From: Spirochaetes bacterium GWE1_32_154
GTDB taxonomy: Bacteria; Spirochaetota; GWE2-31-10
NCBI GenBank assembly: GCA_001829315.1
Contig: MIAY01000002.1
Coordinates: 1 to 54,309 of the forward strand
Length of the DNA: 54,309 bases
Reading direction: 5' to 3'
The notes beneath the pieces are model-generated. The model did no database searches. It had not been told where the DNA came from and saw only the letters and a program-made list of their open reading frames with translations. Position numbers and translations under genes: made by a program. Shown here in pieces: positions 23,380-27,996 of this stretch (position 1 is its first letter; every line of letters begins with the position of its first letter).

Positions 23380-24237
23380 TTATGTATCAAATAAGTTTCC
23401 TGTTTTTAACAGTTCTTGAGTTACGTGCATTTCACCGAGATTTGATTCACCAAAACTACCATGACAATCTGAACCGGATGTAATTAATAAATCATGTTCA
23501 TGACACAATTCTACACAAGTTTTAGTAATTTCATCATTATGTTGAGGATAATAACATTCTATACCGTCTATTCCATTATTGATTATTTTTTTGATTTCTT
23601 CCTTAAATTCTAAAACTGAGTTCTTTTTTACAGTCTTACCCGGATGTGCAAGTATTGCTTTACCTCCCGCATCGTGAATTAAAGTACAAATTTCCTTCAT
23701 AAAAGGGAAATTCGCAGATGAATACAAGTAATTATATTTTGAATAGAATCGTAATCCATCTGTTAAATCTTCTACTAAACCCTTTTCGAGTAAATAATGT
23801 AAAGCTTTCCATCCGCCTTTTCTTTTGTCGTAATTAAATAATTCATAATCACTTATTGTTACTTGAGGATATTCCTTTTCAATTTTTGTTATTAATCTAA
23901 GATTTACTGATTCCAGGAGTTCTCTATTTTTTGTTATAATTCGATTTAAATTTTCATTTATCGTATCAAATCCATATCCAAGTATATGATAATTTATATT
24001 GTTAAAAATTACATCGAGCTCTACACCGGATAAACATTTTATACCATAATCCATTCTTTCAGATAACTTCAGTAATTCTAATGAACCAGCTATACTATTA
24101 TGATCTGTAATTGCTATATATTTGACATTTTTGCTTAGGGCAGTTTCAATAATTTCTTCTGGTGACATAGTTCCATCTGAATAATAAGAATGAATATGCA
24201 TATCAATATATTTATTTTTGACTATAGTGATGATCAT
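23380..24237 (-). CDS. PHP-domain phosphoesterase
   Basis: This 285-residue metal-dependent phosphoesterase shows the PHP motifs in order: DMHIHSYYSDG near the N-terminus, AITDHNSI, SGVELDV, LAHPGKT and SGSDCHG. It resembles the TrpH/YciV group, which acts on nucleotide 3',5'-bisphosphates or short RNAs, but the substrate is not certain. ATG 24237 overlaps the GNAT stop codon as ATGA, with GGGTGA five bases upstream. The longer frame to 24264 is not supported. A partial decayed copy of this gene lies at 22031-22113. Confidence 0.85.
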   Translation of the reverse strand: MIITIVKNKYIDMHIHSYYSDGTMSPEEIIETALSKNVKYIAITDHNSIAGSLELLKLSERMDYGIKCLSGVELDVIFNNINYHILGYGFDTINENLNRIITKNRELLESVNLRLITKIEKEYPQVTISDYELFNYDKRKGGWKALHYLLEKGLVEDLTDGLRFYSKYNYLYSSANFPFMKEICTLIHDAGGKAILAHPGKTVKKNSVLEFKEEIKKIINNGIDGIECYYPQHNDEITKTCVELCHEHDLLITSGSDCHGSFGESNLGEMHVTQELLKTGNLFDT

Positions 24238-24650
24238 TTTTTCACCCATATATTCATACCGCACCCCATTCTGTCATTCGGGCGTTTTATAAACCCGAAT
24301 TTTTCATAAAACATTTCTTTTCCTGTAGCAGCCATTAGACCAACTATGCTGTTATTAACTGAGTTATTTTCAATATAATTCATCACATGCTGCATAATGG
24401 TTTTTCCAATTCCTTTCCCGCGGTAGGCTTCCAGTACGATAATATCCTGTATATAGAAAACCATTTTACCGTCACCGATAACTCTGCCCATTCCAATCGG
24501 GTTTTTGTTAAAATATGCAGTTATTATAAAAAGCGAATTTTTTAATCCCGCTTCAATTTCTTCCGTTGTATAACTTGACCATCCAATTTGTGTTCTTAAA
24601 AAATGATAATGTTCAGCATTCATCATTCCGCATTCATAACTTACTTTCAT
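24234..24650 (-). CDS. GNAT family N-acetyltransferase
   Basis: This 138-residue acetyltransferase has the acetyl-CoA pyrophosphate-binding motif RGKGIGKTIM (about 77-86), preceded by FYIQDIIVLEAY and followed by FYEKFGF near the end, as in small-molecule GNAT enzymes. The substrate is unknown. ATG 24650 has GGAG six bases upstream, and an upstream TTG at 24662 is part of the ribosome binding region. It is translationally coupled to the PHP gene. Confidence 0.88.
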   Translation of the reverse strand: MKVSYECGMMNAEHYHFLRTQIGWSSYTTEEIEAGLKNSLFIITAYFNKNPIGMGRVIGDGKMVFYIQDIIVLEAYRGKGIGKTIMQHVMNYIENNSVNNSIVGLMAATGKEMFYEKFGFIKRPNDRMGCGMNIWVKK

Positions 24651-24844
24651 TATATGCTCCAATAGTAGTGGCAGGGAAGAAATAGTATATGTAAATCATA
24701 CAATGAAGTCAATATTTTTGTAAAAAACCGTCAGTTAGTCAGTAGTTTTTTTTGAATATTATAAATATATGTTATACTCCGTAACGTAATGAAAGACCGG
24801 AATTTCTATCCGGCACTATTAATTGTATGAATTATAAGGACACA

Positions 24845-26638
24845 ATGCCTGGATCTATAAGAGTAAAAATATACATCTATTTAATTATAGTTACCATTAT
24901 CCCGATTTTTTTTATGGGACTGATTTTCACGTCTTTCTACAGGCAGAAACTTGAACACCAGTTGCTTGATGTTCAAAAGAATACTTTGATGACATTAAAA
25001 AAAGATATTATAGACAGGCATATTCAGGATATGAAAAAACTTTTAATTGCATTGGCTGATGAAAAAGACCTGTATAGAGTATTTGACGATGTTACAGTGA
25101 AACAGAGAATTACTGAAAAATGGGAGTTTTCGAGAAAAATATTTCCTGAAAGAGAATGGATTTACTATGGAAATAATCATAATCAGTTGTTTGTTATCCC
25201 TGAGTGGAAACCGCCCGTAGGATATGAAGTTTCCACAAGACCCTGGTATAAAACCGGTAAAGAGTCCGGGACTATACAATGGACATATCCATATAATGAG
25301 TATATTTCGGGTGATCTGGTTCTTTCAGCGACTATTGGTATAAAAAATGCCAATAATCAGTACACTGGAGTATTGTCACTCGATACAACTGCATTTGAAT
25401 TTTTAAAACTACTTCAGACTCACAGTCTTTTTGACTCGGAGAAAATCATTATTTTGTCTGACGCAGGTGATGCGGTAAGTATCAGCGGTAAAGATTCCAC
25501 TCTCACAAATCAGACAAAAAATTTTGACTGGAAAAATATTCTGAACAATGATAACACAAAAGATATAATTACAATACAAACTACAGATTATTATTATTCC
25601 ATCATTTCTTTACCTGAAATCAATCTGTTTGTTGTTAGCCTTTTACCCGCTCATGTACTTAATGAAAAAACTAATCATGTTTTTCTTCTATTATATTTAA
25701 CTCTATTAATTGGTCTATTTATAGCCACAGGTTTCGGATTTGTTTTATCAAAATATTTAATTACAAACGTTTTGAAACTTAATAATTATATTAATCAAGC
25801 AGTAAATCATAACTTTCCGGTTAAAAATGTCGTACGAGGAAATGATGAGTTTCATACAATTAATACGAATTTGAATTTTTTATTACAGACAATAAAAAAT
25901 CAGATCGATGAGCTGAAGCAAATGAATATAATGCTTGAGGAGAGTCTTGAAAATAAAGAGAAACTAATTGCATTACGAACGTCTCTTTTGCATATATACA
26001 GTCACAACGGCAATTCACCCATCACCTATTTATATAATACCTCAAAGGATTTGCTATATACAGAAAATACTGCAGATAATAGAATGCTGTTTACCGCATC
26101 AAAAGAATTAAAATCACTTAATGAAAATCTTATGACGTATTTAAAACTTGAAGATGGAATAAAGGGCAGTTACAAAGACATAGTTTGCTTATCTGAAATA
26201 ACAGAAATGATGGTTAATAATTACGAAATGATGTGTGAGTTTAAAGATATAACACTTATGTATAATTCATTAGAAATAAGCGACGTGGTAAGCAGTTATT
26301 TTTTTATAAAAATTCTACTTGAAAATCTCATTGATAATGCTGTTAAATATTCATATCCGGGTAGCTCTATAAAAATAAATATTTACACTGAAAATGATAC
26401 CATAATCTGGGAAATCATTGACGGAGGACCGGGTTTTACATTAAAAGATAAAACAATGCTCTATAAAAAATTTCAAACGTTGTCTGCAAAACCTACAAAT
26501 GGAGAATCATCAACCGGATTAGGTATGTATTTAGTCAAACAATTATCGGATTATCTGAAAGTAGATCTTTCATTGGTAAATAATCCGGATGAAACAGGAG
26601 CATATTTCAGATTAGCATTTAATCAAAATAAATTCTGA
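24845..26638 (+). CDS. Sensor histidine kinase with dCache sensor
   Basis: This 597-residue kinase has a membrane helix (about 9-31), a dCache periplasmic domain (about 35-270, with STRPWYK and SGDLVLSATIG), a second membrane helix (about 277-300), a HAMP-like linker and a kinase core. The N box is LLENLIDNAVKYS, with DGGPGFT and GLGMYLVKQL. The H box reads SHNGNSPI with His387, where most kinases have SHELRTPL, so it is an unusual HisKA variant. ATG 24845 has AAGGA four bases upstream and is preferred to ATG 24827. The cognate regulator follows at 54 bases. Confidence 0.87.
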   Translation: MPGSIRVKIYIYLIIVTIIPIFFMGLIFTSFYRQKLEHQLLDVQKNTLMTLKKDIIDRHIQDMKKLLIALADEKDLYRVFDDVTVKQRITEKWEFSRKIFPEREWIYYGNNHNQLFVIPEWKPPVGYEVSTRPWYKTGKESGTIQWTYPYNEYISGDLVLSATIGIKNANNQYTGVLSLDTTAFEFLKLLQTHSLFDSEKIIILSDAGDAVSISGKDSTLTNQTKNFDWKNILNNDNTKDIITIQTTDYYYSIISLPEINLFVVSLLPAHVLNEKTNHVFLLLYLTLLIGLFIATGFGFVLSKYLITNVLKLNNYINQAVNHNFPVKNVVRGNDEFHTINTNLNFLLQTIKNQIDELKQMNIMLEESLENKEKLIALRTSLLHIYSHNGNSPITYLYNTSKDLLYTENTADNRMLFTASKELKSLNENLMTYLKLEDGIKGSYKDIVCLSEITEMMVNNYEMMCEFKDITLMYNSLEISDVVSSYFFIKILLENLIDNAVKYSYPGSSIKINIYTENDTIIWEIIDGGPGFTLKDKTMLYKKFQTLSAKPTNGESSTGLGMYLVKQLSDYLKVDLSLVNNPDETGAYFRLAFNQNKF

Positions 26639-26679
26639 TATTTAAGATTTATTTAACATTGAAATACTACAGTAACGGT

Positions 26680-26694
26680 AAGGAGTAAAGTATT
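26680..26694 (+). promoter_or_regulatory. Shine-Dalgarno and AUU start codon of the response regulator
   Basis: AAGGAG (26680-26685) is spaced six bases from ATT (26692-26694). An in-frame TAA (26686-26688) lies between them, so the frame cannot begin further upstream. No ATG, GTG or TTG occurs in frame until 26746, which would delete the first receiver strand. Confidence 0.6.
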
Positions 26695-27387
26695 AACTCA
26701 AACACTATTCTGGTAATTGAAGACAGTGCTTTTATTCGGGCAAGTATGGTAAAAGCTTTAAAAAATGCCAATTATACTGTTATCGAAGCTACATCAGGTA
26801 AAGAAGGCATATCGCAATTAAAAAATAATCTTGCAGATCTCATTGTACTTGATTTAAATCTTGGCGATATGCATGGATCAGATATTCTAAGAAATCTTCG
26901 TAAGCAGAATATTTATACACCGGTAATTATTGTTTCAACAATTAACGAGATTGATACTAAGCTTGACAGTTTTGATAACGGCTGTGATGATTATTTAACC
27001 AAACCATTTTATATGGAAGAGCTTGTTGCCAGAGTGAAAAGAACTTTACATACTAATAAAAACGAAAGTGCTAAAATATTTAAAGAAAATGTAACCAATG
27101 GACCTTTTATGATAGATCTCATCAGTCATAAGATTTATAAATCAGATACATTTATTGAAGCAGGCAACAAATTATTTAATCTCTTTCTTTATTTTATGCA
27201 GAATCCAGACAGATATTTATCAAAAGAACAAATACATAATCAGGTCTGGGATTCCGATGAAGATTTTAATGATAATACGATATCAGTACATATACATTCA
27301 CTTCGATGTTTAATCGAGAATGATCCGAAGAAGCCTGTGTATCTGAGAACAGCAAAAAATATCGGTTTTATCTTTTCTACTCATTAA
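26692..27387 (+). CDS. OmpR/PhoB-family response regulator, apparent AUU start
   Basis: This 231-residue regulator (counting from ATT 26692) has a receiver domain with acidic pair Glu10-Asp11 (LVIEDS), phospho-acceptor Asp54 (IVLDLNL), IVST and Lys104 (LTKPF). A winged-helix DNA-binding domain follows (about 140-228, with TISVHIHSLR and RTAKNIGFIF). The ATG at 26746 would remove strand beta-1 and the acidic pocket, so the true start must be upstream. ATT at ideal distance from AAGGAG is the best candidate, and CTG 26710 is second. It pairs with the kinase upstream and may control the exported-protein genes from 27523. Confidence 0.85.
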   Translation: MNSNTILVIEDSAFIRASMVKALKNANYTVIEATSGKEGISQLKNNLADLIVLDLNLGDMHGSDILRNLRKQNIYTPVIIVSTINEIDTKLDSFDNGCDDYLTKPFYMEELVARVKRTLHTNKNESAKIFKENVTNGPFMIDLISHKIYKSDTFIEAGNKLFNLFLYFMQNPDRYLSKEQIHNQVWDSDEDFNDNTISVHIHSLRCLIENDPKKPVYLRTAKNIGFIFSTH

Positions 27388-27522
27388 TCAAAGCTATAAA
27401 ATGTCTATATTTTACAAAATTATTTAAACAATTAATATTTAATTAATATTCATTATTTAATATATACAATAGGGAGGTATAGTCAGAATTTTTACATATT
27501 TAAATTAAATCAGGAGTAAAGA

Positions 27523-27996
27523 GTGAAAAGAAATTTGTTAATAATCTTAGTTGGAGTGAGTATTTTAGGTTGTTCTTTTAATGATTCAGCAAAAAATACT
27601 AATGTTAATGATATAAAAAATGTAAAAAATGTAACTATACGAAGTGGCTCTCAAGTAACAAAATATCAAGTTAATTCCCACAATTTAATCACCAGCAGTT
27701 CTTATCAGAACACGTATGGTGCTGTTAACTCAAGATCATATCTATATGATGACACAAAAGAGTTGAACACTATCATAAAAGAAAATTCGGTTACAGGCCG
27801 GGATTACTTTTATATCACAACAGTGAAAAACAGAAGTAATAATCAGATAACTCAAAAAATTAAAAGCACCAGCGATTCAAGAGGTACAAAAAAGGAACTT
27901 ACTGTTAATTATATCTATGATGATAACGGAAAGTTGCTTGGAATGATACAAACTGATGCTAATGGGAACGTTATTGCCAAAGGAGTGAACAATTGA
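27523..27996 (+). CDS. Small lipoprotein with YD-like repeats
   Basis: This 157-residue lipoprotein has its signal ending SILGC (Cys17). The mature part contains two short stretches like YD repeats (SYLYDDTKELNTI and YIYDDNGKLLGMIQTDANGNV). The start is GTG with AGGAG six bases upstream. It is the first gene of a four-gene set of exported proteins. The function is unknown. Surface exposure in complex with the next three products is a guess from their shared location and signals. Confidence 0.7.
   Translation: MKRNLLIILVGVSILGCSFNDSAKNTNVNDIKNVKNVTIRSGSQVTKYQVNSHNLITSSSYQNTYGAVNSRSYLYDDTKELNTIIKENSVTGRDYFYITTVKNRSNNQITQKIKSTSDSRGTKKELTVNYIYDDNGKLLGMIQTDANGNVIAKGVNN

Follow-up and report, generated by a model that had tools for sequence, protein, structure and literature searches.

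A response regulator gene of a Spirochaetes bacterium for which AUU is the best-supported initiation codon

Where does translation begin in a response regulator gene whose frame offers no canonical initiation codon until the receiver domain is already under way? The question arises in the window analysed here, the whole 54,309-nucleotide stretch of contig MIAY01000002.1 from Spirochaetes bacterium GWE1_32_154, in which the regulator frame on the + strand is bounded upstream by a TAA stop (26686..26688) and reaches its first ATG only at 26746..26748, the default choice of a gene finder and the codon from which the ORF was listed. Directly ahead of the stop lies the Shine-Dalgarno (SD) sequence AAGGAG (26680..26685, + strand), followed at a distance of 6 nt by an ATT (26692..26694, + strand), which a sequence-only reading had put forward as an AUU initiation codon. 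Our analysis identifies AUU 26692 as the best-supported start and probably the one from which the regulator is translated, a case that can be made from the sequence because spacing, homology and the absence of a usable canonical start agree.

Translated from the ATT, the gene (26692..27387, stop included; + strand) would encode a protein of 231 amino acids with a receiver domain (PF00072, residues 6-116, 92.2 bits, beginning at profile position 1) and a C-terminal winged helix (PF00486, residues 155-228, 68.3 bits), both over the Pfam cut-offs, which places it among the OmpR/PhoB-type response regulators. The translation retains E10/D11, D54 and the lysine of LTKPF, which we take to be, respectively, the metal-binding acidic pair and the remaining residues of the phosphorylation site. 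Starting from ATG 26746, the receiver match begins at profile position 16 of 111 and drops to 77.0 bits; the first 15 profile positions, including E10 and D11, are lost and strand beta-1 is gone. The claim that the receiver needs residues encoded before the first ATG is thereby borne out.

The TAA had also been taken to confine the start to a short interval, and indeed no ATG, GTG or TTG occurs in frame between it and ATG 26746. The codons of interest follow one another in the order TAA 26686, AGT 26689, ATT 26692, CTG 26710 and ATG 26746; further in-frame ATT codons at 26707, 26716 and 26734 have no SD site close to them. Measured from AAGGAG, AGT lies at 3 nt, ATT 26692 at 6 nt and AAC at 9 nt, making this ATT the sole near-cognate codon at 5-8 nt. 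In a 454-kb sample of the same genome, canonical starts preceded by an SD show a main spacing range of 5-8 nt with the mode at 6 nt (42 cases), so that the ATT, described earlier as the only well-placed codon behind AAGGAG, stands at the genome's commonest spacing. The RNA of the start region does not fold unusually (z scores of 0.87 and 0.17) and Rfam gave no match within 24200-27600, so that nothing points to a riboswitch or other structured element in the RNA here.

The gene lies behind a sensor histidine kinase (24827..26638, + strand) with a Cache-type sensor region (PF22673 over its cut-off; a PF02743 match below its own) and a HATPase_c domain (PF02518, 4.5e-15). The kinase stop is situated 53 nt upstream of ATT 26692, in a different frame. 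Between 24600 and 27600, covering kinase to regulator, no + strand terminator was found and promoter-like matches were near chance (24 found versus 19.5 expected in shuffles), leading us to reject an internal promoter or terminator between the two genes, which are likely co-transcribed partners. The Pfam HisKA profile has no match in the kinase, where an H-box-like HNGNSPI is present; the kinase adjoining the paralogous regulator L002 carries HNSASPI. No relatives of the kinase were found among viral contigs.

Homologues provide the second line of evidence on the start. The best relatives of the regulator are L033 in genome G008 (52% identity) and the paralogue L002 in its own genome (48%), each of which follows immediately on a kinase of this type. 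In L002, AAGGAG is followed by a TTG that overlaps the stop of its kinase (TTGA) and that, in the alignment, falls on exactly the residue of ATT 26692. The distance from start to beta-1 is 4-6 codons in 11/11 relatives and 5 codons in the regulator when counted from the ATT; the codons 4-6 positions before its beta-1 are AGT, ATT and AAC, among which only ATT is near-cognate. The proposal of an AUU start is thus upheld by the SD spacing, by the TTG of L002 at the same residue and by the start positions of the 11 relatives. Family members at E <= 1e-42 were found in 7/392 genomes, 5/7 and 4/46 for three sets, which overlap. A scan of genome contigs returned 24 loci, which at 26-35% identity are all too distant for a comparison of starts. 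One relative, L053 in G360, has a repeated segment and an ORF that reads in two frames, pointing either to faulty assembly or to a disrupted gene, and was left out of the count of start codons.

The identity of the start codon is another matter. Among the 12 clade members, judged by eye, ATT serves once, TTG once, GTG three times and ATG seven times, the nearest three members starting with ATT, TTG and GTG. Conservation of AUU in relatives, which had been suggested as a check, is accordingly not found, and neither a weak start conserved across the family nor a conserved regulatory role for AUU is supported; the regulator lacks one mark expected of an IF3-repressed gene, the conservation of its non-canonical start in relatives. 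The five non-ATG starts in the family of 12 do not amount to a convincing excess over the own genome, where ATG opens 409 of the 512 ORFs whose canonical start has an SD before it, and other codons open ~20%.

How exceptional the ATT is within the genome was assessed by counting the 105 in-frame codons found 5-8 nt behind AGGAG in the genome sample. Canonical codons are strongly enriched there, with ATG at 49 versus 2.4 expected (20-fold), TTG at 10 versus 1.1 (8.8-fold) and GTG at 3 versus 0.6 (5.4-fold), and CTG was seen twice versus 0.7 expected. ATT, with 3 occurrences (two of them adjacent codons of one gene) versus 5.9 expected, reaches only 0.5-fold, and AUU as a general start in this genome was rejected. 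A wider scan took in 854 kb, or 21% of the genome, made up of the window and 40 stretches. It collected 643 non-overlapping ORFs with at least 100 codons, 131 of which lack an SD-preceded canonical start as we defined it; 135 ORFs reach their first canonical codon no sooner than 12 codons past the stop. Inspection by eye singled out four cases of a near-cognate codon behind an SD with no usable canonical codon nearby, namely the ATT of the regulator, an ATT in L076 (position 462), an ATC in L070 (position 8433) and a CTG in infC. Unrelated codons (AAA, TGT, TCA, TAT, AGT and others) also appear at SD-like sites in the same 135-ORF table and represent the background; SD context alone therefore does not prove a start, and an SD plus some near-cognate codon, taken by itself, is weak evidence.

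Apart from the regulator, the 21% sample thus yielded one AUU and one AUC candidate. The former (L076:462; G000:C11:100462, + strand) is a 943-codon ORF with GAGGAG 5 nt ahead of ATT ATT and without ATG, GTG or TTG for 65 codons past the stop; we call it a CHASE2-like cyclase by eye from its sequence, with no profile result behind the name. Three of the ten relatives tabulated for it were examined: two have an ATG start no more than a few codons away from the corresponding position, and in L140 a clear ATG start was not seen. The latter (L070:8433, minus strand) is a 229-codon ORF with a hydrophobic N-terminus, in which GGGAGGGGATT is followed by ATC and the first canonical codon comes 58 codons past the stop; a start at AUC (or AUU) is possible.

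The gene for IF3 itself is present in the genome (G000) as a single copy of infC, at L061 / L081:10981 (minus strand). Its frame reads AAAAGGAG TTA ATT CTG GCA AGC AAA GAA, and no ATG, GTG or TTG start occurs in the first part of the gene. Thirty-one infC loci were examined with a motif that recognised the N-terminus of 18 but not of the other 13. At 4/18 loci (G000, G002, G003 and G006) a CTG stands 6 nt behind AAGGAG, preceded by ATT in three of them and by GTT in G006; this variation in the preceding codon makes the CTG the likelier start. Elsewhere in the phylum, in G021 and G032, an ATT behind an AGGAGG-like site is found instead. The infC gene of this genome thus appears to start at CTG, and autocontrol of the IF3 type through a near-cognate codon is likely in the lineage, which would make IF3-sensitive starts plausible there.

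Against this background the alternatives can be weighed. The main alternative, a sequence error or strain variant, with base 26694 really a G and an ordinary ATG at the same place, would be in keeping with the rarity of AUU starts and with the ATG used by 7/12 clade members, and a single base at the exact start position would account for everything else. However, in this assembly (43 contigs, 97.6% completeness) a consensus error is unlikely to have struck precisely that position, and the second AUU candidate together with the probable CUG start of infC suggests that such starts recur in the genome; on balance, we regard this explanation as unlikely. A decaying gene that has recently lost its start codon, so that the cell makes either no product or one cut short at ATG 26746, is a very unlikely reading: loss of an ATG could be a first step of decay and the genome holds the paralogous pair, but the ORF downstream of the start is intact, a complete SD stands at the optimal spacing and both domains exceed their Pfam thresholds.

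The receiver profile, which speaks against ATG 26746, hardly separates ATT 26692 from CTG 26710 (26710..26712, in frame, + strand): read from the latter, the domain stays almost whole, matching from profile position 2 onwards with 90.0 of 92.2 bits, a loss of 2.2 bits. Initiation at this CTG, or at a different codon in the stretch between ATT 26692 and residue 10, would give a receiver shorter by ~6 residues, and CUG is a near-cognate codon with which infC of this genome appears to start. It is disfavoured because CTG 26710 has no SD in front of it and because the start positions of the relatives differ, all 11/11 lying 4-6 codons ahead of beta-1 whereas the CTG falls one codon inside it; we give this reading very little credence. 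Least credible of all, and close to dismissible, is that the frame is reached by readthrough of TAA 26686 or by coupling to translation of the kinase, which ends at 26638, since, although the overlap in L002 makes coupling possible in the family, the kinase stop lies 53 nt upstream and out of frame here, no SD-preceded in-frame start lies upstream of the TAA (TTG 26659 has no SD) and coupling would need a start codon anyway, again the ATT.

Under the preferred reading, initiation at AUU 26692, the ribosome would bind AAGGAG and initiate in an SD-dependent manner with initiator tRNA at the AUU, the complete AAGGAG at 6 nt partly offsetting the weak codon-anticodon pairing. The product would begin fMet-NSNTILVIEDS..., and the N-terminal peptide expected from this start is MNSNTILVIEDSAFIR or NSNTILVIEDSAFIR. 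By analogy with AUU and AUA starts that have been measured, the yield should be about a tenth of that of an AUG start and translation should be sensitive to the level or activity of IF3. The codon would then cap the amount of regulator at a low level compared with its kinase. We infer that the AUU is used in the cell, at low yield and in an IF3-sensitive manner, as we infer any physiological role; IF3-sensitive control of the two-component pair is plausible, given that the genome encodes IF3 and that its infC appears to start at CUG behind a similar SD. We consider unlikely the broader notion that near-cognate starts behind strong SDs in a small set of signalling genes (the regulator and the L076 cyclase) and in infC form an IF3 regulon of the lineage, with the condition of the translation machinery governing how much regulator its kinase can draw on.

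The classic example of such a start is infC of E. coli, which begins at AUU and is under autocontrol by IF3. It shares with the regulator a near-cognate start behind a strong SD, which in infC gives IF3-dependent repression; the gene considered here differs in encoding a response regulator, for which IF3 dependence is proposed only by analogy. In E. coli pcnB, an AUU start, which Binns and Masters reportedly described in 2002, limits a chromosomal gene as proposed here, albeit a different one.

In Staphylococcus aureus, infC starts at AUA, and cvfC1 (AUU) and ccpN (AUA) have non-canonical starts behind strong SDs, expression from such AUU/AUA starts being ~10% of that from AUG in poor medium (PMC13009471). 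There ccpN encodes a regulator and cvfC1 a possible one, each with its weak start behind a strong SD as in the present case, but both the start and an extended SD are conserved in relatives there, whereas here the start is not conserved and the SD, of 6 nt, is unextended. The Streptomyces sigR gene, whose GTC start is repressed by IF3 and sets the sigma/anti-sigma ratio (PMC5472188), offers a parallel in that a transcription regulator whose gene adjoins that of its partner begins at a weak codon; it differs in concerning a sigma/anti-sigma pair, in the codon, in conservation across Streptomyces and in having been shown experimentally. The Borrelia burgdorferi pncA gene (bbe22) starts at AUU and is carried in databases in truncated form (PMC13398362), and the annotated later start would, as here, remove a piece needed by the fold; pncA encodes a metabolic enzyme, and its AUU rests on experiment and the longer protein on a crystal structure. 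In rcsD-Hpt of Yersinia pestis, an AUU start is found in a phosphorelay protein (PMC10191623); it is an internal start in a frameshifted gene and yields an HPt domain rather than a response regulator. Literature matches for two-component systems with an ATT start codon were the Yersinia rcsD paper and a Xanthomonas study.

Taken on its sequence features, the regulator is a well-supported candidate that would add a believable case to the short list of known AUU starts (infC, pcnB, pncA, rcsD-Hpt and cvfC1). A gene finder restricted to ATG, GTG and TTG would leave both beta-1 and the metal-binding acidic pair out of its annotation, and the protein would seem to be non-functional. Should the start be confirmed, the gene would exemplify AUU initiation of a response regulator, for which our literature search found no report, and would allow IF3-linked control to be tested on a two-component pair. 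If the reading is true, a rare, weak start would hold the level of the regulator low and could tie it to IF3.
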